Assembly: GCF_030247195.1 (NCBI RefSeq)
Contig: NC_080672.1
Span: forward strand, 189,089,344-189,153,343
DNA from: Topomyia yanbarensis
Taxonomy: Eukaryota > Arthropoda > Insecta > Diptera > Culicidae
DNA: 64,000 nt
Reading direction: 5' to 3'
Shown here: one piece after another, positions 725-63,015 of the stretch
Layout: each line of letters begins with the position of its first letter
Numbering within the stretch: position 1 is the first letter of the stretch
Program-made: the position numbers and the translations under genes
Notes under the pieces: generated by a model
What the model was told of the DNA's origin: nothing
Database searches by the model: none
Seen by the model: the letters and a program-made list of their open reading frames with translations, nothing else

Positions 725-848
725 CTATGCTATATTTCACCCTAAGGAGGAAAATTAGGTAAAAACCAAAATTTCTCACTAGGGTGAAAATTTGTTGGTA
801 AAAACCAGTCTTTGTACAGGAGGGCACAAATCCTTATTTCATACTATG

Positions 849-923
849 TTGCGTTTCGGCTTCGCCTCTTCAGAAACCGACACTAACGTATTGTCGGAAT
901 AGATTAGCGCCGGCTTGACGCAA
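849..923 (-). ncRNA. Hammerhead ribozyme, unit 1
   Basis: Read on the minus strand from 923 to 849. Stem III 5' strand is TTGCGT, followed by C17 at position 917; cleavage is predicted between 917 and 916. Stem I begins AAGCCGGCGC and pairs with GTGTCGGTTT, and it extends a further three or four pairs. Then come the core CTGAAGA (matching CUGANGA), stem II GGC with loop GAA and GCC, the core GAA, and the stem III 3' strand ACGCAA. All invariant hammerhead residues are present: C3, U4, G5, A6, G8, A9, G12, A13, A14, the 15.1-16.1 A-U pair and H17. Helix III is the open helix, so the topology is type III. A chance match to this whole pattern with three perfect helices is very unlikely. Confidence 0.88.
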
Positions 924-1192
924 ATCCCTTAAAACTAAAACACACTATGTGTTTCAATCAAACGACTGATCAAACGTGATGTCCCGTTCGAGCAGAAGTT
1001 CTGTTTATGCCGATGAGACACAAGTGAAGCCGAAACTTGTCTTGGCTTAGCAGGCCTATGCGAAAGCACTATGCTATATTTCACCCTAAGGAGGAAAATT
1101 AGGTAAAAACCAAAATTTCTCACTAGGGTGAAAATTTGTTGGTAAAAACCAGTCTTTGTACAGGAGGGCACAAATCCTTATTTCATACTATG

Positions 1193-1267
1193 TTGCGTTT
1201 CGGCTTCGCCTCTTCAGAAACCGACACTAACGTATTGTCGGAATAGATTAGCGCCGGCTTGACGCAA
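1193..1267 (-). ncRNA. Hammerhead ribozyme, unit 2
   Basis: Identical to the first copy at a distance of exactly 344 bp. Predicted cleavage on the minus strand is between 1261 and 1260. Two tandem ribozymes in one transcript would release a unit-length 344-nt RNA with the 5'-hydroxyl and 2',3'-cyclic phosphate ends that RNA ligases can circularise; the cutting and circularisation are inferred from the ribozyme family. Confidence 0.88.
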
Positions 1268-1496
1268 ATCCCTTAAAACTAAAACACACGATGTGTTTCA
1301 ATCAAACGACTGATCAAACGTGATGTCCCGTTCGAGCAGAAGTTCTGTTTATGCCGATGAGACACAAGTGAAGCCGAAACTTGTCTTGGCTTAGCAGGCC
1401 TATGCGAAAGCACTATGCTATATTTCACCCTAAGGAGGAAAATTAGGTAAAAACCAAAATTTCTCACTAGGGTGAAAATTTGTTGGTAAAAACCAA

Positions 1497-7859: not shown

Positions 7860-8139
7860 TGCATCAAATCTCGACGTTTCATGCACCTTGAACACATTTA
7901 GCATCAAAAATAAAAATTCTATTTTTAATTTTTCCTATAATTTATATGAGAAATTTCTGCGTGGCCGCACTCTGAAACCCGTAATTCCGGAACCAGAATT
8001 CCGATCGATCCAAAAATCAATAGCAGCTGATGGGAAGGTTACACCTTTCATTTGAGACTAAGTTTGGGCAAATCGGTCCAGCCATCTCTGAGAAAAATGA
8101 GTGACATTATTTGACACATACGCACATACATACACACAC
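7860..8139 (-). repeat. Mosquito interspersed repeat, 3' half (reverse)
   Basis: On the minus strand this reads as the family also seen at 21997-22715 and 24077-24740: TTTCTCAGAGATGG, then AAACTTAGTCTCAAATGAAAGG, then a TTCCGG-rich portion. It ends at a CA-rich microsatellite (about 8114-8139) that serves as the junction with the R1 fragment. The class of the repeat is unknown to me; it is non-coding. Confidence 0.65.
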
Positions 8140-9273
8140 GCCTCAGAGCTAGACGTAGGATGCAAAGAGCTCGCACCGAGGATGCAAGAGAGAACCGCCG
8201 TGAAGTGTTTCGAGCTGCGAAATTGGCCCTTAACAAGGCCATTAAAAGCAGCAAGAGAGCGTGTTTCGACAACCTGTGTGAGAGTGCCAACGCGAATCCG
8301 TGGGGTGACGCCTACAGGATTGTGATGGCCAAGACCAAAAGGGGCTCTTCACCCCCAGAACGGTCTCCAGAACGGTTGGCAACGATTATCGAAGTACTCT
8401 TCCCGTCTCGAGCCACAAGCCCCTGGCCACCTGCACTACGAGACAGTGCGGGCACGGCCGAAATGGTGGCTCCAGTCACGAATGAAGAACTACTCGCAGT
8501 GGCTAAATCCCTAGCAATGAACAAAGCTCCAGGGCCGGATGGAGTTCCAAACAACGCTCTCAAGGCAGTGATCATAGCGAACCCGAACATGTTCAGGCTA
8601 GCTATGCAGAGATGCCTTGACGAGTGCCGTTTCCCCGATAGATGGAAAAGGCAGAAATTGATGCTGTTGCCGAAGCCCGGGAAGCCGCCAGGCGACCCAT
8701 CGGCGTACAGACCAATCTGTCTGATCGACACGACTGGCAAACTGCTTGAGAGGATCATCCTCAACAGGCTCACCCCGTACGCGGAAGGTACGGACGGTCT
8801 GTCAAGCAACCAGTTTGGCTTTCGGAAGGGTAAGTCCACAGTAAACGCTCTCAACCCAGTGATAAATACTGCCGAGAAAGCGATCCAACGGAAAAGGCGA
8901 GGTATTCGATACTGTGCGTTAGTGACACTTGACGTGAAGCTGGGATGCCATCGCGCTCTCGTTACACCGGCTTAGCCTACCGGTGGGTCTGTACCGGATC
9001 TTGGAAAGCTACTTCCAGAACCGCGTACTGCTATACGAGACCGATGCCGGTCAGAAAAGGGTTCCGATTACCGCCGGAGTCCCGCAGGGCTCGATCCTAG
9101 GCCCGGTGCTATGGAACCTCATGTATGACGGGGTTCTGAGACTGAAGTTCCCTCCGGGGGTCAAGATCGTCGGCTTTGCTGACGACGTAACCTTGGAGGT
9201 CTACAGGGAGTCAATTCCTGAGGTAGAACTAACCGCAGAACACGCGATCAGCACGGTGGAAGAATGGATGAGC
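8140..9273 (+). pseudogene. Internal fragment of an R1-clade LINE ORF2
   Basis: This plus-strand segment is more than 90% similar to the middle of the R1-clade ORF2 of the three larger copies. It begins in the linker before the RT domain (RTEDARENRREVF) and ends after the catalytic FADD block (EEWMS). A deletion of about 20 bp near 8938, removing the codons of NAFNSA within the DVKNAFNSASW motif, shifts the frame. The frames therefore are 8160-8975 and 8983-9273 onward. Both ends are truncated, so no promoter or tail remains. The left junction is an ACAY-type microsatellite inside the interspersed repeat. Confidence 0.9.
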
Positions 9274-10500
9274 ACGAAACTATCACTTTCACTAAAAACA
9301 ACACTTGCAGCTATCAGATATGATGCTGGTTCAGTTCACGAAACTTCAAAGTTCTTGCACAACCGATTAACACGAAAAATAAATAGTACAAAAATAAAAA
9401 CGATCACGATTGTTCAACAAGTATAAATTAAAAAGAAAACTACTAGCTTTGTTGACGACCGGGGTGTAGCAAACAGTGATGCCAAATTTTTTGACGGTTT
9501 TCTAGAATTTTTTTGTTCACTTTGATAAAAATAATTCAATGTTACATTATTCATGGTTATTCGGGAAAGATTTAATTTCGTCCACATAATTGTAATTTTC
9601 AATGTTTTGTAGTACTTGTGCCAGTTTTTTTAGTGGTAGAAAATTCAACTTTGGTCGAATCTAAATGCATTAGTAGTAGTACAGTAGTCTAGATAGCCTA
9701 AAAAAAGATAGAAATATTTTCTGAATTTTTTGAGCGACTGCTAAGACATAACGAGATAGAAATTCCGCTTTCGAGGTTTGATTATTAGAGTGTTAAAATG
9801 ATGACTGGCATGACCCTATATCCCTTTTGGTTTAGTACCGAGCATATGAGCATAAGGTGTAATGTTTCTTCCTTCGAGCCTCTTGCTCTCGTGTACATAT
9901 TTTGTCTTTGTCGCATTTATTACCGCATTTTTTTCAAGAGTCAGTCAATTTTCATTATTTTCGGCACAGTTTACTGCCTCCCGGTTATCAAAAGTGTGAA
10001 TAACGGTGCAATTCAACGATTGTAAAAAGTGAAGTGGCTTCTAAAAGCATTTTTCGGCATATTTTCGACTGACACTCGTGGTGACAGTTTGAAAAAAAAT
10101 CTTTTTCTCGCATTACGGGCCGTCGATTCCCGATGCAAGGACAATAAAAGTGCACAGAAAACATTTAGAAACACAGTGTATATTCGAAAAATAGTTTTTC
10201 AGAGAAAAAAATTCGATCCGAAAAGTAAAAAAAAATTTAAAAAAAATACGGCGATAAGAATAATTGGCATAATCAAATAATTGGTGGGGTGACCGGCGAC
10301 TAGCGACTACCAGGTATCGCCCCAAAATTCTTCGCCCGAAAAATAGGTGGCAAACCAGCCGGTCGGTGCTCAGCTATTTTCGTCCGCTTCCCTTGTCACC
10401 TATTTTTTTATTGGGTGTTTCATTGGCTGGTGCTATCTTTGAAAATGAGCCGCCTTGGATATTCAACTGTTTTTTGCGATCTTATTTTATTGCAAATGAG
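9274..10500. other. AT-rich intergenic stretch, no recognised gene
   Basis: Short ORFs of 62-83 codons occur on both strands with low-complexity, lysine- or phenylalanine-rich translations and no recognisable motifs. A GGTGACCGGCGACTAGCGAC patch near 10287 stands out in composition but has no identifiable role. Confidence 0.35.
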
Positions 10501-14244: not shown

Positions 14245-16059
<1,815 letters not shown>

Positions 16060-16499: not shown

Positions 16500-16940
16500 C
16501 TGTATGAGGCTTACTTGGGTGCTCTCTCAATCACACTTTGATTCACTCTCAAACACTCCCACATGAGGCTGACTTTTGTGCTCACCTTTTACGTTCCATG
16601 CGAGGCTGACTTGTGTGCTCACCCTACTCATTCCTTGCTAGGCTTACTTTTGTGCTCGCCCTACCCATCCATGTGAGGCTGACTTGGGTGCTCACCCTAT
16701 CACCTGATTCACTCTCAATCGTGCCACTCTATTGTACCTTTGTCACTCCCTCTGGCATCCCATGTGGGACATTTTTCTTAGGCCCCACTTCTGACATACC
16801 ATGCGAGGCTGACTTTTGTGCTCACCTTTTTCATTCCTTGCTAGGCTGACTTTTGTGCTAGCCTCTACCAACCTGTGAGGCTGACTTTTATGCTCACCCT
16901 TAACATGCAGTGTGAGACTGACTTGGATGCTCACCCTTTC
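16500..16940 (-). repeat. 36-37 bp minisatellite in R1 3' UTR
   Basis: The core (G/T)AGGCTGACTT followed by GTGCTCACC appears about nine times on the plus strand (near 16507, 16565, 16602, 16639, 16675, 16805, 16842, 16877, 16914). Spacing is mostly 35-37 bp, with one interruption. The same array is in copies 2 and 3, so it belongs to the element and is not host satellite. Repeated 3' UTR units can serve as reverse-transcriptase recognition or RNA structure; that role is inferred. Confidence 0.85.
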
Positions 16941-17182: not shown

Positions 17183-20158
17183 CTAGTTAGCCGTGCCCGC
17201 CGTCTGTTGCTCGGTTCGCCAGATTACCTGTAGCCTACTGGCAATCTGGATGGTAGCAGCCGAGACTGCGTTCCACTTCTCCACCGTTTGACACATCCGC
17301 TGAATAAGGGTATCCGGGGTTGTGTCCCAGCCACAGACGTCAAGCATTGCTCTTCTTTCGACGTCGAACCGATGACATACGAACAGTATGTGTTCGGCAG
17401 TTTCATCTACACCTGGGCAGTCCGGGCAGACTGGGACCTCCGCGTGTCCGAACCTGTGGAGGTACTGACGGAAACAGCCATGGCCTGACAGGAATTGTGT
17501 CAGGTGGAAGTGAACTTCCCCATGGGGTCTTCCCACCCAGCTCGATATGCTAGGTATCAGCCGGTGGGTCCACCTACCTTTCGAGGAGTTGTCCCACTCA
17601 CGCTGCCATCTGGCGACCGAGGTCACCCTGGTGCGCTCGCGGGCTCCCCTATTTCCACGTAGCTCAAAGCACTCCTCATCTTCCCGAATGACCAGCCCGA
17701 CTGGCATCATGCTCGCTATCACGCAGGATGCATCGTGTGATACCGTGCGGTAGGCAGATATCACTCTGAGGCACATCACGCGGTAGGTGGTCTCCAGTTT
17801 CTGTAGGTAACTGGTTACCCTCAGTGCTCTTGACCATGACGGGCCGCCGTACCTGAGGATAGATACGGCAACGCCTGCCAGTAACCTACGTCTACTGGCG
17901 CACACCTTTGAGCTGTTGGACATCATTCTCGATAGTGCCGCAACAGCAGTCGACGCTCTCTTGCACGTATAGTCGACATGGCTGCCGAAGGTCAGCTTGT
18001 CGTCTATAATGACTCCGAGAGACTTCAGACTTCGCTGTGAAGTGATCGCGACTTCTCCCACATGGATAACTGCATGTTGTGCCGACTTGCGGTTGTTGAC
18101 GATAACTACCTCCGTCTTATGATGAGCGAGCTCCAGGCCTCTCGCGCTCATCCATTCCTCCACCGTGCTAATCGCGTGTTCTGCGGTTAGTTCTACCTCA
18201 GGAATTGACTCCCCGTAGACCTCCAAGGTTACGTCGTCGGCAAAGCCGACGATCTTGACCCCAGGAGGGAACTTCAGTCTCAGAACCCCGTCATACATGA
18301 GGTTCCATAGCACCGGGCCTAGGATCGAGCCCTGCGGGACTCCGGCGGTAATCGGAACCCTTTTCTGACCGGCATCGGTCTCGTATAGCAGTACGCGGTT
18401 TTGGAAGTAACTTTCCAGGATCCGGTACAGACCCACCGGTAGGCTAAGCCGGTGTAACGAGAGCGCGATGGCATCCCAGCTTGCGCTGTTGAATGCGTTC
18501 TTCACGTCAAGTGTCACTAACGCACAGTATCGAATACCTCGCCTTTTTCGTTGGATCGCTATCTCGGCAGTATTTATCACTGAGTTGAGAGCGTCCACTG
18601 TGGACTTACCCTTCCGAAAGCCAAACTGGTTGCTTGACAGACCGTCCGTACCTTCCGCGTACGGGGTGAGCCTGTTGAGGATGATCCTCTCAAGCAGTTT
18701 GCCAGTCGTGTCTATCAGACAGATTGGTCTGTACGCCGATGGGTCGCCTGGCGGCTTCCCGGGCTTCGGCAACAGCACCAGTTTCTGCCTTTTCCATCTA
18801 TCGGGGAAACGGCACTCGTCAAGGCATCTCTGCATAGCTAGCCTGAACATGTTCGGGTTCGCTATGATCGCTGCCTTGAGAGCGTTGTTCGGAACTCCAT
18901 CCGGCCCTGGAGCTTTGTTCATTGCTAGGGATTTAGCCACTGCGAGTAGTTCTTCGTTCGTCACTGGAGCCACCATTTCGACCGTGCCCGCACTGTCTCG
19001 TAGTGCAGGTGGCCAGGGGCTTGTGGCTCGAGACGGGAAGAGTACTTCGATAATCGTTGCCAACCGGTCCGGAGACCGTTCTGGGGGTGAGGAGCCCCCT
19101 TTGGTCTTGGCCATCACAATCCGGTAGGCGTCACCCCACGGATTCGCGTTGGCACTCTCACACAGGTTGTCGAAACACGCTCTCTTGCTGCTTTTAATAG
19201 CCTTGTTAAGGGCTAATTTCGCAGCTCGAAACACTTCACGGCGGTTCTCTCTTGCATCCTCGGTGCGAGCTCTTTGCATCCTACGTCTAGCTCTGAGACA
19301 GGCTGACCGTAGAGCTGCAATCTCGGCACTCCACCAGTATACCGGGCATCTACCGTTTCTTGGAAGTGTTTTTCTCGGCATAGTGGCGTCGCACGCGCGT
19401 GATAGAACAGCTACCAGCGCATCCCCGCTTAGACTGTCGGTGTTGGCCTCCAGTCCCAGGGCCGCGGTGAAAGCTTCGCTGTCGAAGTGATTGGACTTCC
19501 ACCCGCGTACCTGACAGGGATCTCCCGCCCTCGGATGCTGCACACCATAGTTGATCTTAAAGCGGATTGCTAAATGATCGCTATGGGTGTAGCCTTCGTC
19601 TACCCTCCATTCCATGCCTGGAGCCAGACTCGGGTTGGCAAAGGTCAAATCAATCCACGCCTCCACTCCGTTTCTACGGAATGTACTAGCGGAGCCATCA
19701 TTAGCTAGCACAGTATCGAGTTTCGCAAACGCTTCCATTAGCGCTTCACCCCTGCTATTTGTACAGCGGCTGCCCCACTCCACTGCCCAAGCGTTGAAGT
19801 CTCCCGCTATTACTACCGGTTTCCGGCCCACGAGGTCCGACGAGAGCCTGTCGATCATCTGGTAGAACTGTTCTATTGGCCACCTTGGTGGGGCGTAGCA
19901 GCTGCAATAGAACACACCATTGATCTTGGCAATCGCCACACCCTCGGCGGAGGGGTGTATTACCTCTTGAACCGGGAACCTTCCCGTTGTACAGATTGCC
20001 ACCATTCCAGACCCGTCCGACACCCAATTGCCGTTGCCGGCAGGGATGCTGTACGGGTCTGATAAGAGGGCGACATCTGTCCTCGACTCCGAGACCGACT
20101 GCCACAGCAGCTGTTGGGCTGCTGCACAATGGTTAAGATTTAGCTGTGTGACTCTCAC
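17183..20158 (-). CDS. R1-clade ORF2: endonuclease-reverse transcriptase
   Basis: 991 codons, starting MRVTQLNLNH. Residues 1-230 form an apurinic-type endonuclease that nicks target DNA: LNLNHCAAAQ at the N-terminus, GDFNAWAVEWG near 119, SDHLAIRF near 205. The reverse transcriptase spans about 430-720 and includes YRPICLIDTTGKLLE, QFGFRKGKST, DVKNAFNSASW, GVPQGSILGP and the catalytic FADD near 640. The C-terminus holds a CPDCPGVDETAEHILFVCH zinc motif typical of the R1 clade. The start overlaps the ORF1 stop by four bases (20155-20158), a termination-reinitiation arrangement. No stops or frameshifts are seen. The protein would carry out target-primed reverse transcription in the nucleus. 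Confidence 0.95.
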   Translation of the reverse strand: MRVTQLNLNHCAAAQQLLWQSVSESRTDVALLSDPYSIPAGNGNWVSDGSGMVAICTTGRFPVQEVIHPSAEGVAIAKINGVFYCSCYAPPRWPIEQFYQMIDRLSSDLVGRKPVVIAGDFNAWAVEWGSRCTNSRGEALMEAFAKLDTVLANDGSASTFRRNGVEAWIDLTFANPSLAPGMEWRVDEGYTHSDHLAIRFKINYGVQHPRAGDPCQVRGWKSNHFDSEAFTAALGLEANTDSLSGDALVAVLSRACDATMPRKTLPRNGRCPVYWWSAEIAALRSACLRARRRMQRARTEDARENRREVFRAAKLALNKAIKSSKRACFDNLCESANANPWGDAYRIVMAKTKGGSSPPERSPDRLATIIEVLFPSRATSPWPPALRDSAGTVEMVAPVTNEELLAVAKSLAMNKAPGPDGVPNNALKAAIIANPNMFRLAMQRCLDECRFPDRWKRQKLVLLPKPGKPPGDPSAYRPICLIDTTGKLLERIILNRLTPYAEGTDGLSSNQFGFRKGKSTVDALNSVINTAEIAIQRKRRGIRYCALVTLDVKNAFNSASWDAIALSLHRLSLPVGLYRILESYFQNRVLLYETDAGQKRVPITAGVPQGSILGPVLWNLMYDGVLRLKFPPGVKIVGFADDVTLEVYGESIPEVELTAEHAISTVEEWMSARGLELAHHKTEVVIVNNRKSAQHAVIHVGEVAITSQRSLKSLGVIIDDKLTFGSHVDYTCKRASTAVAALSRMMSNSSKVCASRRRLLAGVAVSILRYGGPSWSRALRVTSYLQKLETTYRVMCLRVISAYRTVSHDASCVIASMMPVGLVIREDEECFELRGNRGARERTRVTSVARWQREWDNSSKGRWTHRLIPSISSWVGRPHGEVHFHLTQFLSGHGCFRQYLHRFGHAEVPVCPDCPGVDETAEHILFVCHRFDVERRAMLDVCGWDTTPDTLIQRMCQTVEKWNAVSAATIQIASRLQVIWRTEQQTAGTAN

Positions 20159-21639
20159 GGCTTCTTCTTATTTAACTCGCCGAAGGGACACGAAGGTCCG
20201 CCCATAGCATGTTTATGGGCTTGCTTCTTAGCGGTGCAGATAAGGCACGTATATGCCTTACTGCACCCCCGCTCTTTATGCCCCTCCTCGCCGCATCGAC
20301 GACATAGCTTGCTCCTGTCTATGCCTTTGCATTCGTAAGCTTTATGGCCGGATTCTAGGCACCGATAGCACCTGTCCACTGAAGGCGGCTGGGGTATACT
20401 AATAGGGCATACCGACCAGCCGATCTTCAGCTTCCCTTTCTCGGTTACCTTTTTGGCATCCGCATTCAGTAGCCTGAGGTAGGCTACTTGGGTGCCAGAG
20501 GGTCCGTCCCTCAATCGCACAGAGGCCCGCTCGATTGTGACGCCGCATTGCTCCTTGACGGCTGCGACGACGTCTTCTGCGGTCGTGAACTCGTCCAAGT
20601 GCTTGCACTGGAGAGTTGTTTCCGCACCTAGCGACCTGATTTGGGCGCCCTCACCCAGGACCTCTTGGGCCAAGGCCTTATATACTGCACTTGATTGTGC
20701 GCCTCGCTTCAGCACCAGGAGCATCTCTCCCGTATTGGTGCGTCTTACGCTACGCACATCCTGCCCAAGGGCCGAGAGACTTTCGGCCGCCTTCATCGAT
20801 TTAAGGACATCGGCATATTTGTCCTTGTCGGTTTTTAACCACAAGGCTTCGCCTCTGTCCTTGGCCTTCCTCGCAGGCCGCGGTACCTCCCGTGTCGGTG
20901 CCGGCTTTTTCTTGGTAACCAGCGACCAGGGGTTTGAGCCCCCCTGCCCCGGTCGTGCCGGGTTGCTGGTACCAACCCTCTCCACAGCGAGGTCACTCTC
21001 GCCCTCGCTTACCTCACCCAGGCGGCGTTTGACCTTGACGGTTGCACGCCGAGTGGTGTCGGTTTTGGCACCCTCGCCTGGCGACTTCCTAGGGCGCTTC
21101 GCATACGATGCCGTCTTGCGATTGCCCTTTCCCTTTCCCTTCGAGGGGAACTCGGTCGCCGCTCCGATCGACGTGGCTGCTCCGTAGAAGGTAAAGGCCA
21201 CTGTCTGTGAACCTCTATTGACCTTCTCTCTTTCCTCCCTATTGGAGGCCACTGTCTGGGTTTCTCTGTCGGGCCTCTCCCGACATTCCACCCTCTCAAC
21301 ATATGCCTGCTGTTCCTGTCTTGCGACACGAACAGCTTTCCGGAGCTCCAGAAGGCTCAACTTCAACTCCTTGGCTATGTTCTGCTTTGCGCTAGCGAAG
21401 TCGATTATAGAATCGAGTTGCTTCGCTACTTTGCGCATCGCAGCTATTGGCCCCTCCGATGCATTGGTAGGAGTATTGCCTACCGCTGCTGGGGGGTCAC
21501 TGGTGCTTTCGGGTGCAGCACTCATCGCTCCACTACTCTCCCCACGGGGGGGAGACCTCGCCAAACCACCTCTTGCGAAGGGGTTTGGCACCTCCGTCTG
21601 TTTGTTTTTATTTTTCTTTGCCTCCATGTATAGTCCCAC
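20155..21639 (-). CDS. R1-clade ORF1: gag-like nucleic-acid-binding protein
   Basis: 494 codons from MGLYMEAKKN. The N-terminal half is charged and low in complexity, with a possible coiled-coil around residues 65-130 and a basic stretch (KGKGKGNRKT, PRKSPGEG). Residues about 270-410 form a compact conserved region, and the C-terminus holds three cysteine/histidine knuckles (CYRCLESGHKAYEC, CRRCGEEGHKERGC and a third CLIC...H...C). Such proteins coat element RNA and guide the complex to its target. The four-base overlap with ORF2 suggests coupled translation. The frame is unbroken here, whereas copies 2 and 3 are frameshifted in the N-terminal part. Confidence 0.93.
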   Translation of the reverse strand: MGLYMEAKKNKNKQTEVPNPFARGGLARSPPRGESSGAMSAAPESTSDPPAAVGNTPTNASEGPIAAMRKVAKQLDSIIDFASAKQNIAKELKLSLLELRKAVRVARQEQQAYVERVECRERPDRETQTVASNREEREKVNRGSQTVAFTFYGAATSIGAATEFPSKGKGKGNRKTASYAKRPRKSPGEGAKTDTTRRATVKVKRRLGEVSEGESDLAVERVGTSNPARPGQGGSNPWSLVTKKKPAPTREVPRPARKAKDRGEALWLKTDKDKYADVLKSMKAAESLSALGQDVRSVRRTNTGEMLLVLKRGAQSSAVYKALAQEVLGEGAQIRSLGAETTLQCKHLDEFTTAEDVVAAVKEQCGVTIERASVRLRDGPSGTQVAYLRLLNADAKKVTEKGKLKIGWSVCPISIPQPPSVDRCYRCLESGHKAYECKGIDRSKLCRRCGEEGHKERGCSKAYTCLICTAKKQAHKHAMGGPSCPFGELNKKKP

Positions 21640-21981
21640 GAGTAGCGCGAGAAATATATGTCCGCCACGCCAGAGCTCCGCATTAGCGTGGTAAGGGACG
21701 CTTACTGTGGGGGTTGCCCAGGTACCCCACAGGCTCCGTTAACGATCGAGCATCTTTTTCACCCCCTCGATCACTCATCCCTCGGCACGGGTCGCTTCAC
21801 GCCTTGGAATTGGGGTTATGCCCTACCTTGCTTTACGTGGTGATCTCGGCCCGGATCATCACAACCATCCTCCTTTACCAGGGCTTTGGACCTGTAGCTC
21901 TGGTTCTCAATAGTTCCATGTACATATGTTATTACAGACATGCTACTATTGGGATCCGTCATTCGCTAGCGGAGTTATTCA
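21640..21981 (-). promoter_or_regulatory. R1 5' UTR / presumed internal promoter region
   Basis: About 340 bp between the 5' junction and the ORF1 start, conserved in all three large copies (30941-31287 and about 55430-55750). All share GCTAGCGAATGACGGATC at or very near the 5' end, read on the minus strand. LINEs need an internal promoter in this region; none is recognised by motif. Confidence 0.6.
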
Positions 21982-22715: not shown

Positions 22716-24076
<1,361 letters not shown>

Positions 24077-25839: not shown

Positions 25840-26280
25840 CCTGTATGAGGCTTACTTGGGTGCTCTCTCAATCGCACTTTGATTCACTCTCAAACACTCC
25901 CACATGAGGCTGACTTTTGTGCTCACCTTTCACGTTCCATGCGAGGCTGACTTGTGTGCTCACCTTACTCATTCCTTGCTAGGCTTACTTTTGTGCTCGC
26001 CCTACTCATACCATGTGAGGCTGACTTGGGTGCTCACCCTATCACCTGATTCACTCTCAATCGTGCCACTCTATTGTACCTTTGTCACTCCCCCTGGCAT
26101 CCCATGTGGGATATTTTTCTTAGGCCCCACTTCTGACATACCATGCGAGGCTGACTTGTGTGCTCACCTTTTTCATTCCTTGCTAGACTGACTTTTGTGC
26201 TAGCCTCTACCAACCTGTGAGGCTGACTTTTATGCTCACCCTTAACATGCAGTGTGAGACTGACTTGGATGCTCACCCTT
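25840..26280 (-). repeat. 36-37 bp minisatellite in R1 copy 2 3' UTR
   Basis: The same GAGGCTGACTT...GTGCTCACC array as in copy 1, with about nine units and the same interruption in the middle. Confidence 0.85.
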
Positions 26281-26524: not shown

Positions 26525-29466
26525 CTAGTTAGCCGTGCCCGTCGTCTGTTGCTCGGTTCGCCAGAATACCTGTTGCCTACTGGCAATCTGGATGGTAGCA
26601 GCCGAGACTGCGTTCCACTTCTCCACCGATTGACACATCCGCTGAATAAGGGTATCAGGGGTTGTGTCCCAGCCACAGACGTCAAGCATTGCTCTTCTTT
26701 CGACGTCGAACCGATGACATACGAACAGTATGTGTTCGGCAGTTTCATCTACACCTGGGCAGTCCGGGCAGACGGGGACCTCCGCGTGCCCGAACCTGTG
26801 GAGGTACTGACGGAAACAGCCATGGCCTGACAGGAATTGTGTCAGGTGGAAGTGAACTTCCCCATGGGGTCTTCCCACCCAGCTCGATATGCTAGGTATC
26901 AGCCGGTGAGTCCACCTACCTTTCGAGGAGTTGTCCCACTCACGCTGCCATCTGGCGACCGAGGTCGCCCTGGTGCGCTCGCGGGCTCCCCTATTTCCAC
27001 GTAGCTCAAAGCACTCCTCATCTTCCCGAATGACCAGCCCGACTGGCATCATGCTCGCTATCACGCAGGATGCATCGTGTGATACCGTGCGGTAGGCAGA
27101 TATCACTCTGAGGCACATCACGCGGTAGGTGCTCTCCAGTTTCTGTAGGTAACTGGTTACCCTCAGTGCTCTTGACCATGACGGGCCGCCGTACCTGAGA
27201 ATAGATACGGCAACGCCTGCCAGTAACCTACGTCTACTGGCGCACACCTTTGAGCTGTTGGACGTCATTCTCGATAGTGCCGCAACAGCAGTCGACGCTC
27301 TCTTGTACGTATAGTCGACATGGCTGCCGAAGGTCAGCTTGTCGTCTATAATGACTCCGAGAGACTTCAGACTTCGCTGTGAAGTGATCGCGACTTCTCC
27401 CACATGGATAACTGCATGTTGTGCCGACTTGCGGTTGTTGACGATAACTACCTCCGTCTTATGATGAGCGAGCTCCAGGCCTCTCGCGCTCATCCATTCC
27501 TCCACCGTGCTAATCGCGTGTTCTGCGGTTAGTTCTACCTCAGGAATTGATTCCCCGTAGACCTCCAAGGTTACGTCGTCGGCAAAGCCGACGATCTTGA
27601 CCCCAGGAGGGAACTTCAGTCTCAGAACCCCGTCATACATGAGGTTCCATAGCACCGGGCCTAGGATCGAGCCCTGCGGGACTCCGGCGGTAATCGGAAC
27701 CCTTTTCTGACCGGCATCGGTCTCGTATGGCAGTACGCGGTTTTGGAAGTAACTTTCCAGGATCCGGTACAGACCCACCGGTAGGCTAAGCCGGTGTAAC
27801 GAGAGCGCGATGGCATCCCAGCTTGCGCTGTTGAATGCGTTCTTCACGTCAAGTGTCACTAACGCACAGCATCGAATACCTCGCCTTTTTCTTTGGACCT
27901 CGGCAGTATTTATCACTGAGTTGAGAGCGTCCACTGTGGACTTACCCTTCCGAAAGCCAAACTGGTTGCTTGACAGACCGTCCGTACCTTCCGCGTACGG
28001 GGTGAGCCTGTTGAGGATGATCCTCTCAAGCAGTTTGCCAGTCGTGTCTATCAGACAGATTGGTCTGTACGCCGATGGGTCGCCTGGCGGCTTCCCGGGC
28101 TTCGGCAACAGCACCAGTTTCTGCCTTTTCCATCTATCGGGGAAACGGCACTCGTCAAGGCATCTCTGCATAGCTAGCCTGAACATGTTCGGGTTCGCTA
28201 TGATCGCTGCCTTGAGAGCGTTGTTCGGAACTCCATCCGGCCCTGGACTTGTTCATTGCTAGGGATTTAGCCACTGCGAGTAGTTCTTCATTCGTGACTG
28301 GAGCCACCATTTCGGCCGTGCCCGCACTGTCTCGTAGTGCAGGTGGCCAGGGGCTTGTGGCTCGAGACGGGAAGAGTACTTCGTTAATCGTTGCCAACCG
28401 GTCCGGAGACCGTTCTGGGAGTGAGGAGCCCCCTTTGCTCTTGGCCATCACAATCCGGTAGGCGTCACCCCACGGATTCGCGTTGGCACTCTCACACAGG
28501 TTGTCGAAACACGCTCTCTTGCTGCTTTTAATAGCCTTGTTAAGGGATAATTTCGCAGCTCGAAACACTTCACGGCGGTTCTCTCTTGCATCCTCGGTGC
28601 GAGCTCTTTGCATCCTACGTCTAGCTCTGAGGCAGGCTGACCGTAGAGCTGCAATCTCGACACTCCACCAGTATACCGGGCATCTACCGTTTACCGTCGC
28701 ACGCGCGTGATAGAACAGCTACCAGCGCATCCCCGCTTAGACTGTCGGTGTTGGCCTCCAGTCCCAGGGCCGCGGTGAAAGCTTCGCTGTCGAAGTGATT
28801 GGACTTCCACCCGCGTACCTGACAGGGATCTCCCGCCCTCGGATGCTGCACACCATAGTTGATCTTAAAGCGGATTGCTAAATGATCGCTATGGGTGTAG
28901 CCTTCGTCTACCCTCCATTCCATGCCTGGAGCCAGACTCGGGCTGGCAAAGGTCACATCAATCCACGCCTCCACTCCGTTTCTACGGAATGTACTAGCGG
29001 AGCCATTATTAGCTAGCACAGTATCGAGTTTCGCAAGCGCTTCCATTAGCGCTTGACCCCTGCTATTTGTACAGCGGCTGCCCCACTCCACTGCCCAAGC
29101 GTTAAAGTCTCCCGCTATTACTACCGATTTCCGGCCCACTAGGTCCGACGAGAGCCTGTCGATCATCTGGAAGAACTGTTCTATTGGCCACCTTGGTGGG
29201 GCGTAGCAGCTGCAATAGAACACACCATTGATCTTGGCAATTGCCACACCCTCGGCGGAGGGGTGTATTACCTCTTGAACCGGGAACCGTCCCGTTGTAC
29301 AGATTGCCACCATTCCAGACCCGTCCGACACCCAATTGCCGTTGCCGGCAGGGATGCTGTACGGGTCTGATAAGAGAGCGACATCTGTCCTCGACTCTGA
29401 GACCGACTGCCACAGCAGCTGTTGGGCTGCTGCACAATGGTTAAGATTTAGCTGTGTGACTCTCAC
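26525..29466 (-). pseudogene. R1-clade ORF2, copy 2, frameshifted
   Basis: Three open pieces: 29466-28684 (endonuclease domain, 260 codons), 28613-28155 (linker), and 28186-26525 (RT and C-terminal zinc domain, 553 codons). A 2-bp deletion near 28246, in the codons before APGPDGVPNN, and a deletion of about 27 bp near 28690 break the frame. A further 6-bp in-frame deletion near 27897 removes two residues. The catalytic FADD is still present. It encodes no complete polymerase. Confidence 0.92.
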
Positions 29467-30940
29467 GGCTTCTTCTTATTTAACTCGCCGAAGGGACACG
29501 AAGGTCCGCCCATAGCATGTTTATGGGCTTGCTTCTTAGCGGTGCAGATAAGGCACTTGTATGCCTTACTGCACCCCCGCTCTTTATGTCCCTCCTCGCC
29601 GCAGCGACGACATAATTTGCTCCTATCTATGCCTTTGCATTCGTATGCTTTGTGGCCAGACTCAAGGCACCGATAGCACCTATCCACTGAAGGCGGTTGG
29701 GGTATACTAATAGGGCATACCGACCAGCCGATCTTCAGCTTCCCTTTCTCGGTTACCTTTTTGGCATCCGCATTCAGTAACCTGAGGTAGGCTACTTGGG
29801 TGCCAGAGGGTCCACCTCTCAATCGCACAGAGGCCCGCTCGATTGTGACGTCGCAGTGCTCCTTAACAGCTGCGACGACGTCTTCTGCGGTCGTGAACTC
29901 GTCCAAGTGCTTGCACTGGAGAGTTGTTTCCGCACCTAGCGACCTGATTTGGGCGCCCTCACCAAGGACCTCTTGGGCCAAGGCCTTGTATACTGCACTT
30001 GATTGTGCGCCTCGCTTCAGCACCAGAAGCATCTCTCCCGTGTTGGTGCGTCTTACGCTACGCACATCCTGCCCAAGGGCCGAGAGGCTTTCGGCCTGCT
30101 TCATCGATTTAAGGACATCGGCGTATTTGTCCTTGTCGGTTTTTAACCACAAGGCTACGCCACTGTCCTTGGCCTTCTTCGCAGGCCGCGGTACCTCCGG
30201 TTTCGGTGCCGGCTTTTTCTTGGTGACCAGCGTCCAGGGGTTTGAGCCCCCCTGCCCCGATCGTGCCGGGTTGCTGGTACCATCGCTCTCCACCGCGAGG
30301 TCACTCTCGCCCTCGCTTACCTCGCCCAAACGGCGTTTGACCTTAACGGTTGCACGCCGAGTGGTGTCGGTTTTAACACCCTCGCCTGGCGACTTCCTAG
30401 GGCGCTTCGCGTTCGATGCCGTCTTGCGATTGCCCTTGCCCTTGCCTTTTCCCTTCGAGGGGAACTCGGCCGCTGCTTCAAGCGACGTGGCTGCTCCATA
30501 GAAGGTGAAGGGCACTGTCTGAGTGCCCGTATCGACCTTCTCTTTTCCCTCCTTCTTGGAGGCCACTGTCTGGGTTTCTCTGTTGCACTTCTCCCGACAT
30601 TCCACCCTCTTGGCATAAGCCTGCTGTTTCTGTCTTGCGACACGAACAGTTTTTCGGAGTTCCAGGAGACTCTGTTTTAACTCCTTGCTTATATTTTGCT
30701 TTGCGCTAGTGTACTCGATTATTGCATCGAGCTGCTCCACCACTTTGCGCATCGCCGATAATGGCCCCTCCGGTGCGTTGGTAGGGCTATTGCCTACCGC
30801 TGCAGGGGGTTACTGGTGCTTTCAGATGCAGCACTCATCGCTCCACTACTCTCCCCACGGGGGGGAGACCTCGCCAAACCACCTCTAGCGAAGGGGTTTG
30901 GCACCTCCGACTGTTTATTTTTATTTTTTGTTAACTCCAT
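29463..30940 (-). pseudogene. R1-clade ORF1, copy 2, frameshifted
   Basis: An open frame covers 30752-29463 (429 codons) and includes all three zinc knuckles. A single-base loss near 30810 separates it from the N-terminal codons up to about 30940. The first of the two start codons of copy 1 is also mutated. The remaining long frame could still make an N-truncated gag-like protein. Confidence 0.88.
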
Positions 30941-50276: not shown

Positions 50277-50720
50277 CCTGTATGAGGCTTACTTGGGTGC
50301 TCTCTCAATCGCACTTTGATTCACTCTCAAACACTCCCACATGAGGCTGACTTTTGTGCTCACCTTTCACGTTCCATGCGAGGCTGACTTGTGTGCTCAC
50401 CTTACTCATTCCTTGCTAGGCTTACTTTTGTGCTCGCCCTACTCATACCATGTGAGGCTGACTTGGGTGCTCACCCTATCACCTGATTCACTCTCAATCG
50501 TGCCACTCTATTGTACCTTTGTCACTCCCCCTGGCATCCCATGTGGGATATTTTTCTTAGGCCCCACTTCTGACATACCATGCGAGGCTGACTTGTGTGC
50601 TCACCTTTTTCATTCCTTGCTAGACTGACTTTTGTGCTAGCCTCTACCAACCTGTGAGGCTGACTTTTATGCTCACCCTTAACATGCAGTGTGAGACTGA
50701 CTTGGATGCTCACCCTTTCA
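50277..50720 (-). repeat. 36-37 bp minisatellite in R1 copy 3 3' UTR
   Basis: Same array as in copies 1 and 2 (GAGGCTGACTT...GTGCTCACC), nearly base-for-base identical to copy 2. Confidence 0.85.
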
Positions 50721-50961: not shown

Positions 50962-53935
50962 CTAGTTAGCCGTGCCCGCCGTCTGTTGCTCGGTTCGCCA
51001 GATTACCTGTAGCCTACTGGCAATCTGGATGGTAGCAGCCGAGACTGCGTTCCACTTCTCCACCGTTTGACACATCCGCTGAATAAGGGTATCCGGGGTT
51101 GTGTCCCAGCCACAGACGTCAAGCATTGCTCTTCTTTCGACGTCGAACCGATGACATACGAACAGTATGTGTTCGGCAGTTTCATCTACACCTGGGAAGT
51201 CCGGGCAGACTGGGACCTCCGCGTGCCCGAACCTGTGGAGGTACTGACGGAAACAGCCATGGCCTGACAGGAATTGTGTCAGGTGGAAGTGAACTTCCCC
51301 ATGGGGTCTTCCCACCCAGCTCGATATGCTAGGTATCAGCCGGTGGGTCCACCTACCTTTCGAGGAGTTGTCCCACTCACGCTGTCATCTGGCGACCGAG
51401 GTCACCCTGGTGCGCTCGCGGGCTCCCCTATTTCCACGTAGCTCAAAGCACTCCGCATCTTCCCGAATGACCAGCCCGACTGGCATCATGCTCGCTATCA
51501 CGCAGGATGCATCGTGTGATACCGTGCGGTAGGCAGATATCACTCTGAGGCACATCACGCGGTAGGTGCTCTCCAGTTTCTGTAGGTAACTGGTTACCCT
51601 CAGTGCTCTTGACCATGACGGGCCGCCGTACCTGAGGATAGATACGGCAACGCCTGCCAGTAACCTACGTCTACTGGCGCACACCTTTGAGCTGTTGGAC
51701 ATCATTCTCGATAGTGCCGCAACAGCAGTCGACGCTCTCTTGCACGTATAGTCGACATGGCTGCCGAAGGTCAGCTTGTCGTCTATAATGACCCCGAGAC
51801 TTCAGACTTCGCTGTGAAGTGATCGCGACTTCTCCCACATGGATAACTGCATGTTGTGCCGACTTGCGGTTGTTGACGATAACTACCTCCGTCTTATGAT
51901 GAGCGAGCTCCAGGCCTCTCGCGCTCATCCATTCCTCCACCGTGCTAATCGCGTGTTCTGCGGTTAGTTCTACCTCAGGAATTGACTCCCCGTAGACCTC
52001 CAGGGTTACGACGTCGGCAAAGCCGACGATCTTGACCCCAGGAGGGAACTTCAGTCTCAGAACCCCGTCATACATGAGGTTCCATAGCACCGGGCCTAGG
52101 ATCGAGCCCTGCGGGACTCCGGCGGTAATCGGAACTCTTTTCTGACCGGCATCGGTCTCGTATAGCAGTACGCGGTTTTGGAAGTAACTTTCCAGGATCC
52201 GGTACAGACCCACCGGTAGGCTAAGCCGGTGTAACGAGAGCGCGATGGCATCCCAGCTTGCGCTGTTGAATGCGTTCTTCACGTCAAGTGTCACTAACGC
52301 ACAGTATCGAATACCTCGCCTTTTTCGTTGGATCGCTATCTCGGCAGTATTTATCACTGAGTTGAGAGCGTCCACTGTGGACTTACCCTTCCGAAAGCCA
52401 AACTGGTTGCTTGACAGACCGTCCGTACCTTCCGCGTACGGGGTGAGCCTGTTGAGGATGATCCTCTCAAGCAGTTTGCCAGTCGTGTCTATCAGACAGC
52501 TTGGTCTGTACGCCGATGGGTCGCCTGGCGGCTTCCCGGGCTTCGGCAACAGCACCAGTTTCTGCCTTTTCCATCTATCGGGGAAACGGCACTCGTCAAG
52601 GCATCTCTGCATAGCTAGCCTGAACATGTTCGGGTTCGCTATGATCGCTGCCTTGAGAGCGTTGTTTGGAACTCCATCCGGCCCTGGAGCTTTGTTCATT
52701 GCTAGGGATTTAGCCACTGCGAGTAGTTCTTCATTCGTCACTGGAGCCACCATTTCGACCGTGCCCGCACTGTCTCGTAGTGCAGGTGGCCAGGGGCTTG
52801 TGGCTCGAGACGGGAAGAGTACTTCGATAATCGTTGCCAACCGGTCCGGAGACCGTTCTGGGGGTGAGGAGCCCCCTTTGGTCTTGGCCATCACAATCCG
52901 GTAGGCGTCACCCCACGGATTCGCGTTGGCACTCTCACACAGGTTGTCGAAACACGCTCTCTTGCTGCTCTTAATAGCCTTGTTAAGGGCCAATTTCGCA
53001 GCTCGAAACACTTCACGGCGGTTCTCTCTTGCATCCTCGGTGCGAGCTCTTTGCATCCTACGTCTAGCTCTGAGGCAGGCTGACCGTAGAGCTGCAATCT
53101 CGGCACTCCACCAGTATACCGGGCATCTACCGTTTCTTGGCAGTGTTTTTCTCAGCATTGTGGCGTCGCACGCGCGTGATAGAACAGCTACCAGCGCATC
53201 CCCGCTTAGACTGTCGGTGTTGGCCTCCAGTCCCAGGGCCGCGGTGAAAGCTTCGCTGTCGAAGTGATTGGACTTCCACCCGCGTACCTGACAGGGATCT
53301 CCCGCCCTCGGATGCTGCACACCATAGTTGATCTTAAAGCGGATTGCTAAATGATCGCTATGGGTGTAGCCTTCGTCTACCCTCCATTCCATGCCTGGAA
53401 TCAGACTCGGGCTGGCAAAGGTCACATCAATCCACGCCTCCACTCCGTTTCTACGGAATGTACTAGCGGAGCCATTATTAGCTAGCACAGTATCGAGTTT
53501 CGCAAGCGCTTCCATTAGCGCTTGACCCCTGCTATTTGTACAGCGGCTGCCCCACTCCACTGCCCAAGCGTTAAAGTCTCCCGCTATTACTACCGGTTTC
53601 CGGCCCACGAGGTCCGACGAGAGCCTGTCGATCATCTGGTGGAACTGTTCTATTGGCCACCTTGGTGGGGCGTAGCAGCTGCAATAGAACACACCATTGA
53701 TCTTGGCAATCGCCACACCCTCGGCGGAGGGGTGTATTACCTCTTGAACCGGGAACCGTCCCGTTGTACAGATTGCCACCATTCCAGACCCGTCCGACAC
53801 CCAATTGCCGTTGCCGGCAGGGATGCTGTACGGGTCTGATAAGAGGGCGACATCTGTCCTCGACTCCGAGACCGACTGCCACAGCAGCTGTTGGGCTGCT
53901 GCACAATGGTTAAGATTTAGCTGTGTGACTCTCAC
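50962..53935 (-). pseudogene. R1-clade ORF2, copy 3, inactivated
   Basis: It opens at 53935 and reads 754 codons to a 2-bp deletion near 51795. Remaining frames are 51705-51385 and 51315-50962, separated by a nonsense change near 51382 (a tryptophan codon to TGA). The RT catalytic motif reads FADV instead of FADD (near 52010), which removes a metal-binding aspartate. The endonuclease (GDFNAWAVEWG) and the C-terminal zinc motif are otherwise intact. Confidence 0.93.
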
Positions 53936-55405
53936 GGCTTCTTCTTATTTAACTCGCCGAAGGGACACGAAGGTCCGCCCATAGCATGTTTATGAGCTTG
54001 CTTCTTAGCGGTGCAGATAAGGCACTTGTATGCCTTAGTGCACCCCCGCTCTTTATGTCCCTCCTCGCCGCAGCTACGACATAATTTGCTCCTATCTATG
54101 CCTTTGCATTCGTATGCTTTATGGCCGGACTCAAGGCACCGATAGCACCTATCCACTGAAGGCGGCTGGGGTATACTAATAGGGCATACCGACCAGCCGA
54201 TCTTCAGCTTCCCTTTCTCGGTTACCTTTTTGGCATCCGCATTCAGTAGCCTGAGGTAGGCTACTTGGGTGCCAGAGGGTCCACCTCTCAACCGCACAGA
54301 GGCCCGCTCGATTGTGACGTCGCAGTGCTCCTTAACGGCTGCGACGACGTCTTCTGCGGTCGTGAACTCGTCCAAGTGCTTGCACTGGAGAGTTGTTTCC
54401 GCACCTAGCGACCTGATTTGGGCGCCCTCACCAAGGACCTCTTGGGCCAAGGCCTTGTATACTGCACTTGATTGTGCGCCTCGCTTCAGCACCAGAAGCA
54501 TCTCTCCCGTGTTGGTGCGTCTTACGCTACGCACATCCTGCCCAAGGGCCGAGAGGCTTTCGGCCGCCTTCATCGATTTAAGGACATCGGCGTATTTGTC
54601 CTTGTCGGTTTTTAACCACAAGGCTTCGCCTCTGTCCTTGGCCTTCTTCACAGGCCGCGGTACCTCCGGTTTCGGTGCCGGCTTTTTCTTGGTGACCAGC
54701 GTCCAGGGGTTTGAGCCCCCCTGCCCCGGTCGTGCCGGGTTGCTGGTACCATCGCTCTCCGCCGCGAGGTCACTCTCACCCTCGCTTACCTCGCCCAAAC
54801 GGCGACCTTGACGGTTGCACGCCGAGTGGTGTCGGTTTTGGCACCCTCACCTGGCGACTTCCTAGGGCGCTTCGCGTTCGATGCCGTCTTGCGATTGCCC
54901 TTTCCTTTTCCCTTCGAGGGGAACTCGGTCGCCGCTCCGATCGACGTGGCTGCTCCGTAGAAGGTAAAGGCCACTGTCTGTGAACCTCTATCGACCTTCT
55001 CTCTTTCCTCCCTATTGGAGGCCACTGTCTGGGTTTCTCTGTCGGGCCTCTCCCGACCTTCCACCCTCTTAACATAAGCCTGCTGTTCCTGTCTTGCGAC
55101 ACGAACAGCTTTCCGGAGCTCCATGAGGCTCAACTTCAACTCCTTGGCTATATTCTGCTTTCCGCTAGCGAAGTCGATTATAGAATCGAGTTGCTTCGCT
55201 ACTTTGCGCATCGCAGCTATTGGCCCCTCCGATGCATTGGTAGGGCTATTGCCTACCGCTGCTGGGGGGTCACTGGTGCTTTCGGATGCAGCACTCGTCG
55301 CTCCACTACTCTCCCCACAGGGGGGGGGGAGACCTCGCCAAACCACCTCTAGCGAAGGGGTTTGGCACCTCCGTTTGTTTTGTATATTTATTTTTGCTCT
55401 ATATA
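53932..55405 (-). pseudogene. R1-clade ORF1, copy 3, frameshifted
   Basis: Two frames, 54798-53932 (288 codons, with the zinc knuckles) and a longer N-terminal frame up to 55460, meet near 54795 where 4 bp of the KRRLGEV codons are missing. One zinc-knuckle residue is also changed (CRSCGEEGH). Additional G insertions near 55320 alter the N-terminal codons. Confidence 0.9.
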
Positions 55406-55750
55406 TCAAATCCCACGAGTCGCGCGAGAAATAAATGTCCGCCACGCCAGAGCTCCGCATTAGCGTGGTAAGGGACGCTTACTGTGGGGGTTGCCCAGGT
55501 ACCCCACAGGCTCCGTTAACGATCGAGCATCTTTTTCACCCCCTCGATCACTCATCCCTCGGCACGGGTCGCTTCACGCCTTGGAATTGGGGTTATGCCC
55601 TACCTTGCCTTACGTGGTGATCTCGGCCCGGATCATCACAACCATCCTCCTTTACCAGGGCTTTGGACCTGTAGCTCTGGTTCTCAATAGTTCCATGTAC
55701 GTATGTTATTACAGACATGCTACTATTGAGATCCGTCATTCGCTAGCGGA

Positions 55751-59640: not shown

Positions 59641-63015
<3,375 letters not shown>

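Follow-up and report, generated by a model that had tools for sequence, protein, structure and literature searches.

The insertion and its target site

The window, which is the whole 64-kb stretch of DNA analyzed here, was taken from Topomyia yanbarensis (tribe Sabethini), whose genome assembly comprises 1.168 Gb. A 772-bp insertion was located at 725-1496 and consisted of 2.24 units of 344 bp, read on the minus strand. The two full units were found at 725-1068 and 1069-1412, and an 84-bp partial third unit at 1413-1496 formed the RNA 5' end of the insertion. Tandem Repeats Finder gave 724-1495 with a period of 344, 2.2 copies and 99%. A preliminary description of this DNA had reported an exact 344-bp period over 2.25 copies. 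The period was reproduced, but its exactness was one base short because the full units differed at a single position, T at 946 and G at 1290. The unit was non-coding, with a GC content of 0.419 and a longest ATG-started open reading frame of 23 amino acids, and no LTR-like architecture was seen in the element. A Helenus-type TRIM with tRNA-like LTRs was considered and rejected; Helenus carries LTRs and 4-5 bp duplications (PMC10886601, in excerpt). With a tRNA-derived SINE in view, which would carry a Pol III promoter and a tRNA-like head, the Rfam tRNA model gave 16.6 bits against a cut-off of 29, and ARAGORN gave no hit. The hammerhead strand of the unit held seven T4/T5 runs and the plus strand no run of four T, a marked strand asymmetry.

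The insertion was flanked by the 13-bp sequence CGACGTTTATCAA, with a left copy at 712-724 and a right copy at 1497-1509, as reported before, and no third site was found within the 64-kb window. The host of the insertion was a foldback repeat with inverted arms (approximately 87%) at 1-225 and 1915-2147. It had many genomic paralogues (334 candidate places, 40 of them scored), and the best nine other places were compared with the window. All nine lacked the insert and carried one stretch that resembled the duplication, differing from it by a few changes at most, and the alignment around the insertion site was gapless in eight of the nine. Since the duplication was present and the paralogous sites were empty, the boundaries of the insertion and the insertion event were considered settled, which supported the earlier claim of a retro-insertion with target duplication. 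The assignment of the DNA to a mosquito was also borne out. The longest open reading frame of the window (1124 amino acids) belonged to a LINE, and its best named relatives were in Wyeomyia, Malaya and Sabethes, which we take to be sabethine mosquitoes.

A type III hammerhead and its predicted fold

A strict type III hammerhead descriptor (CUGANGA, GAA, A15.1-U16.1, H17 and the helices) was run on the whole window. It matched the minus strand only, once per full unit, with C3 at 873 and 1217. The hammerheads occupied 849-923 and 1193-1267 on the minus strand by descriptor, fold and covariance model, and cleavage was predicted between 917 and 916 (GUC^A) and between 1261 and 1260. Cutting at both hammerheads would be expected to release a 344-nt monomer RNA, 917-1260 on the minus strand. 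The parts were a helix III of UUGCGU/ACGCAA, a helix I of 14 pairs and a helix II of GGC-GAA-GCC. The preliminary description had assigned each full unit a minus-strand hammerhead with all invariant residues and three perfect helices. The hammerhead and its residues were recovered in both units, and helices III (six Watson-Crick pairs) and II (three pairs) were perfect, but the 14 pairs of helix I included G-U wobbles. Random sequence with the dinucleotide composition of the window was used to estimate the chance rate. Type III matches with helices I, II and III of at least 8, 3 and 6 bp occurred 0 times in 2.14 Gb, and 92 matches were obtained at the looser 4/3/4 setting. The unconstrained prediction for the isolated 78-nt stretch was the hammerhead fold. 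In the range scanned, 600-1620, there was no match to strict type I or type II hammerheads, and no plus-strand ribozyme was found with Rfam and the hammerhead scan. A plus-strand candidate at 1010 (CCGAUGA, with U4 changed) was rejected, as it showed no helices in a relaxed scan.

The covariance-model check proposed earlier gave opposite results with two kinds of model. Stock Rfam models found nothing at the gathering score in the 64 kb and gave no hammerhead row in 600-1620 at E<=10. Hammerhead_3 scored 14.2 bits on 845-926 against a cut-off of 48.5, in the wrong register and at background level. The probable reason is the length of helix I, which greatly exceeds that of the Hammerhead_3 model. 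A covariance model based on relatives approximately 70% identical to the window element (13 hammerheads in 11 diverged loci) was then constructed. Both window copies scored 67.9 bits (E 4.7e-16), with no further match up to E 10 in the 64 kb. Elsewhere, the model gave 69 matches in 32 of 33 other loci (L011 and L049 overlap). The diverged relatives were homologues with 68-76% identity across most of the part that matched, and therefore both sequence and structure fed the model score.

Covariation was examined in 36 distinct hammerheads, drawn from 25 loci in addition to the window. This set leaned towards structure because 27 of the 36 hammerheads had been picked by descriptor and the other nine by sequence. 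In the alignment, 92.4% of cells were paired, compared with 28-41% when the structure was slid. Two-sided cells numbered 29 against a shuffle mean of 12.4, and none of 500 shuffles reached this value. In helix II, G-C was replaced by A-U in 14 of the 36 rows and C-G by G-C in one. Pair 3 of helix I changed from G-U to U-A in 13 of 36 rows and to A-U in one. Two of the five measures were not above the shuffles (two-sided pairs, 4 vs 3.7; further pair types, 22 vs 22.9). Most of the double changes separated two main sub-groups, so they represented few events and not 29. In the aligned sequences, the hammerhead helices covary. Self-cleavage would be expected from the sequence of the hammerhead. 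Helix I ran as one long, regular duplex uninterrupted by an internal loop, and loop II consisted of GAA only. The loop-loop contact of fast hammerheads seems to be missing, and cleavage may therefore be slow.

The whole-unit context gave a different prediction from that of the isolated stretch. The hammerhead was disfavoured in the predicted fold of the circle, with -108.8 kcal/mol compared with -100.6 kcal/mol when the hammerhead was forced. A putative blocking strand, GUUUCGGCUUC, was located at 1026-1036 on the minus strand by complementarity and covariation and would pair with GAAGCCGAAAC of the hammerhead; its counterpart in the second unit was at 1370-1380. A complement of 11 nt was attained in 3 of 5000 shuffles. 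When 25-nt windows were scanned, with local hairpins inside each window uncounted, 30 of 344 had an 11-nt complement elsewhere in the circle, which is the count given by the two sides of the blocking helix. In the relatives, all 11 pairs of this helix were kept in 19 of 28 rows, and in 7 of 26 distinct rows pair 7 was A-U in place of G-C. The two-sided cells numbered 8, compared with 3.3 from shuffles, and two of the five covariation measures were not above the shuffles (2 vs 1.6; 6 vs 5.5). These results led to the prediction that the hammerhead is blocked by the 11-nt complement. The blocker was only part of the story because other pairings were still favoured over the hammerhead in a predicted 197-nt piece without the blocking strand. 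A stable hairpin was also predicted just upstream of the RNA 3' end, at 735-789 on the minus strand, with repeats at 1079-1133 and 1423-1477.

The minus-strand unit was highly self-paired (z -6.3). A self-paired RNA of 344 nt with one hammerhead and no ATG-started open reading frame above 23 amino acids would suit an infectious mosquito circular RNA of the viroid-like or HDV-like kind that was reverse transcribed by chance. We consider this origin very unlikely. No plus-strand ribozyme was found, unlike viroid-like RNAs with ribozymes in both polarities, the hammerhead was by eye without the GCCR/YGGC pseudoknot architecture of its HDV-like counterparts, and a close-copy family together with diverged relatives was present within one genome. 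Viral contigs were searched with three exact fragments of the element and with a single gapped pattern for its hammerhead, and neither kind of query gave a match. A general core pattern found one phage locus, L001:2185-2258 on the minus strand, where the match was a type I hammerhead whose helix II (GGC-GAA-GCC) is identical to that of the window element. It scored 41.4 bits (E 3.4e-4) with Rfam RAGATH-1, below the cut-off of 56.3, and a weaker second match was present at 2841-2910. Of two hammerhead pattern searches in genome contigs, one gave no match and the other matched a bacterial locus that was rejected as chance by eye, without a helix I.

Genomic copies, insertion ends and a LINE chimera

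Further genomic copies, whose absence had been named earlier as a refutation, were found. The first genome search, in which 40 of 64 candidates were scored, gave at least 54 matches when that of the window itself is counted, and a second search with the conserved part as the query gave 46 matches. We fetched 45 regions around the matches (one being a longer cut of the place of L029) and four longer cuts. The close-copy set comprised 27 loci, namely the window, L049, L012-L034 minus L015, L053, L057 and L058; L059 was the place of L029 again. Counts of ends and target duplications excluded L015/L050, which form a cluster, and the diverged L035-L048 and L054-L056. The place C1:39690599, in the L056 region, lay outside the examined set. 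Target duplications were accepted in 20 of the 27 close-copy loci, with lengths of 7-13 bp and a mean of 10.6. Fifteen were 10-13 bp long, four were 8 bp and one was 7 bp, and those of 7 and 8 bp were possible by chance. The duplication of L018 was counted but doubtful because two analyses had picked different 8-bp repeats. None was accepted for L016, L020, L021, L027, L033, L034 and L057, and a candidate for L020 was dropped because it lay inside the repeat.

The units of one insertion resembled each other more than those of different insertions. In figures pooled over eight insertions, the difference was 0.84% within an arm (34/4048), 1.30% between the arms of one insertion (62/4772) and 2.71% between insertions (1404/51826). 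Single cases ran against the pooled trend. L014 reached 2.14% within an arm, L016 and L059 reached 2.33% and 2.42% between arms, and the different insertions L013 and L049 were only 1.13% apart. The near-identity of the units had been described as fitting multi-round reverse transcription of one circular template. It does fit this explanation, and it also fits a recent insertion of an uncleaved tandem transcript.

Other arrangements of related sequences were observed in the fetched regions. L050:2808-5770 was a cluster of approximately 90%-identical tandem units with other repeated sequence between them and was more satellite-like. L039 and L047 contained two or more hammerheads of diverged relatives close together. 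A further hammerhead-like core (CTGACGA GGA GAA TCC GAAAC), distinct from that of the retrozyme copy, was present in the 5' flank of the L020 element, near 1566-1663 on the minus strand. It scored 23.3 bits with model R1 and may represent another family.

The ends of the insertions were compared using a unit numbering that starts, at 1, with the base directly following the cleavage site (window 1260). The RNA 3' end of the window insertion, ..UAUAGCAUAG, lay at 725-734 on the minus strand and corresponded to unit 192. We refer to it as the A end. A second site, B, which was a 3' end in other copies, was internal in the window (..CAUAGUAUG, 1184-1192 on the minus strand, unit about 77). The B end read ..GCAACAUAGUAUG at unit about 77; one sub-family had a variant, B', instead. 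Ends were classified by eye, and some overlapped the duplication by a few bases. Among 36 RNA 3' ends in the 20 insertions with a target duplication, 19 were A, 16 were B and one was at unit 136 (L013). None of the 36 was at unit 344, the end of a linear RNA cut by the hammerhead. In 16 of the 20 insertions (L049, L014, L017, L018, L019, L022-L026, L028-L032 and L053), the arms were inverted head to head, with an A end facing outward on one side and a B end on the other, and one arm was merely about 8-10 nt long in L019, L030 and L031. The window, L012 and L058 had an A end and a free 5' end. No A/A or B/B termini occurred among the 20 insertions, and the chance of obtaining 16 A/B pairs out of 16 is 0.5^16 = 1.5e-5. 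The two sites were about 115 nt apart with hairpins in between, and the stretch did not form a closed domain in the predicted fold, in which ten pairs around both sites reached outside. By eye, the short stretch AUAG(C/U)AU was present at both.

The RNA 5' ends were scattered. Two of 33 were exactly at the cleavage site (L013 and L030), with two further bases between this end and the duplication in L013. The probability was 0.004 for a pre-chosen site and 0.06 for the best 6-nt cluster anywhere, and a second cluster started at 154. The enrichment at the cleavage site was suggestive only, and the two ends were as expected for run-off on cut RNA. The pattern of A and B ends suggests that priming occurs at two sites (twin priming) and that the RNA does not end at the cleavage site. 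The template would have been a circle or an uncleaved multimer because priming was internal, arms crossed the 344/1 junction and the window arm exceeded two units. The second of these templates would make the hammerhead and the circle bystanders, and the copies would go back to linear multimer transcripts that older tandem loci had produced and that stayed uncleaved. Tandem source loci do exist, as L049 carried more than three units per arm, and the hammerhead is predicted to be mostly blocked. We judge this origin improbable in view of the core and helices conserved with compensating changes in the approximately 70%-identical relatives, the 5' ends of L013 and L030 at the cleavage site and the 3' ends at two internal sites.

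Rearrangement at the DNA level, by a foldback transposon, a satellite repeat or re-insertion of an extrachromosomal circle, was also considered, as the inverted copies look like foldbacks and the window copy sits inside a foldback repeat. The foldback was the target, with empty paralogues, and neither the variable 7-13 bp duplications, the 3' ends that were fixed while the 5' ends were scattered, nor the LINE sequence in one copy would favour such an event, which we regard as extremely improbable.

This LINE sequence was found in L029, which is contained whole in L059 (L029:17-1375 = L059:1543-2901). The insertion comprised an A-arm, an 804-bp LINE 3' end with its A-tail, and a B-arm, inside one 11-bp duplication. 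By eye, the LINE piece had no duplication of its own at its borders, and template switching is therefore the simplest account of the chimera. LINEs of this type were abundant and young, with at least 40 places at 98-100%, their own included, when 40 of 1939 candidates were scored. They were about 6.0 kb long, and the copy L067 had matches to an endonuclease, a reverse transcriptase and RNase H. Among three full-length copies, a 13-bp duplication was seen in L068 (two letters of it in the A-tail), a 7-bp duplication in L067 and none in L070. The LINE and the 344-nt unit shared no sequence beyond chance. This RNase H-type LINE family is a candidate mobilizing partner, as judged from the chimera. 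It could also be a bystander because it is very abundant and the link consists of one chimera.

Penelope-like elements encode a reverse transcriptase with a GIY-YIG nuclease, and tandem partial units are typical of them. The window element itself was excluded from being such an element, as it is non-coding and of type III. The same element could have been mobilized by a Penelope-like element instead of a LINE, since its tandem, partly repeated hammerhead structure resembles Penelope pseudo-LTRs, and the authors of PMC7229834, in the accessible part, lean towards such a partner. Two observations made us regard this partner as unlikely. The sole chimeric insertion carries LINE sequence, and the hammerheads of Penelope-like elements are minimal type I (PMC7761336, in excerpt), whereas that of the window is type III.

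Proposed mechanism and relation to described elements

The above results were brought together in a mechanism. Transcription over two units would allow both minus-strand type III hammerheads to cut out the 344-nt RNA, which a host ligase would probably close into a circle. The closed circle would fold so that the hammerhead is blocked by the 11-nt complement. Target-primed reverse transcription of the retrozyme RNA would then be carried out by a LINE reverse transcriptase, probably that of the abundant RNase H-bearing LINE, and would begin at two fixed positions within the unit, A (unit 192) and B (unit about 77). Priming by one target end would give a directly oriented tandem copy, as in the window. 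Priming by both target ends, with A used by one and B by the other, would yield a copy inverted head to head.

The conservation of the hammerhead, the target duplications, the A and B ends, the inversions and the one LINE chimera were observed directly. Cleavage, the circle, the ligase and the identity of the LINE are what we infer from these sequence features. We consider it likely that this is a non-autonomous, non-coding element of the retrozyme type, whose 344-nt RNA is released by the hammerhead and target-primed from A and B by a LINE. The fuller version, in which the ribozyme makes an endless RNA circle that a LINE integrates by concerted A and B priming as a distinct mode, in a plant-type self-blocked type III animal retrozyme, is held with only slightly more belief than doubt. 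The preliminary description had called the element an RNA-circle-based non-autonomous retroelement. The retro-insertion, the hammerhead and the copies were upheld, and the circle is a probable part of the mechanism.

The comparisons below are limited to the accessible parts of the cited papers. Non-LTR retrozymes of metazoans (PMC7229834, Cervera and de la Pena 2020) are described as tandem units of 170-400 nt with GC below 50%, no LTR, PBS or PPT, target duplications above 4 bp and expression as linear and circular RNA. The window element resembles them in unit size, tandem arrangement, GC content and target duplication; no LTRs were seen in it, and its own circle is putative. Their hammerheads are of type I and, some mussel ones excepted, mostly predicted to be free, whereas that of the window is of type III and predicted to be blocked by its complement. 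The element was therefore not simply an animal retrozyme, and the earlier comparison with animal retrozymes held in part. In the same source, blocked hammerheads are described for plant retrozymes and viroids, and the mobilizing enzyme (LINEs or Penelope-like elements) and the priming of the circle are left open for animal retrozymes. Two fixed 3' ends and mostly inverted insertions, as in the window family, were not found for metazoan retrozymes in the accessible part of that paper. Plant LTR retrozymes (Cervera et al. 2016, PMC4918200) share the type III hammerhead and the blocked predicted fold. They have LTRs of approximately 350 bp, 4-bp duplications and lengths of 600-800 nt, whereas here no LTRs were seen, the duplications were 7-13 bp and the unit was 344 nt.

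Type III hammerheads of Drosophila pseudoobscura, housefly and other dipterans (PMC7936874) have the same topology and a long helix I. They are likened to forms with a 6-bp helix II and the GCCR/YGGC pseudoknot, from which the window differs, and no element context is given in the accessible text. The hammerhead repeats of Aedes aegypti (PMC3088659) are likewise interspersed mosquito repeats with hammerheads. Their motif has a loop III and may need dimers, whereas stem III is open and 6 bp long in the window. In a review, insect elements with type III hammerheads are mentioned as in preparation (PMC7761336, in excerpt), so type III elements in insects have already been hinted at in print.

SINEs mobilized by LINEs show target duplications and 5' truncation, and in L1 twin priming, inversion arises by priming from both target ends. 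The window family is alike in its target duplications and in an inversion attributable to two-end priming. It differs in having no poly(A) or LINE-like tail, in its two fixed internal priming sites and in being inverted in 16 of 20 insertions with a target duplication. The element works like a retrozyme and fits neither described class as defined.

Literature searches, which left most subscription papers outside, found none joining retrozyme, hammerhead and mosquito, and none joining twin priming and hammerhead ribozyme. Retrozymes and target priming were joined in PMC7229834 and PMC10886601, and the search for viroid-like, mosquito and hammerhead returned fungi and cotton as subjects, in the accessible parts of these sources. 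In the literature searched, no animal was found for which a retrozyme with a self-blocked type III hammerhead of the plant type is described. The paired A and B 3' ends and the head-to-head inversions were new and suggest two-site priming. The A and B ends, their pairing in 16 of 16 two-armed insertions and the LINE chimera suggest that target priming is of the LINE type and acts on an RNA that has no end where the ribozyme would cut. This is a partial answer on the enzyme and on the priming of the circle, and the chimera in L029 names a LINE partner that can be tested. If true, two-site twin priming of a circle would be a distinct mode of integration. The combination of plant features (type III, blocked) with an animal-type insertion is relevant to how the two retrozyme classes, and also viroid-like RNAs, arose.

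Several other repeats were observed in the window. Four LINE copies, some of them broken, lay at 17183-21738, 26525-30809, 51671-55478 and 8115-9426 and belonged by eye to one family. Pfam analysis, applied to the first of the four copies only, identified CCHC, endonuclease and reverse transcriptase domains. A 37-bp minisatellite was present 3' of three of the LINE copies, at 16565-16898, 25906-26038 and 50343-50475. Perfect TA repeats of 250-429 bp were located at 14271-14552, 22828-23077 and 60063-60491.
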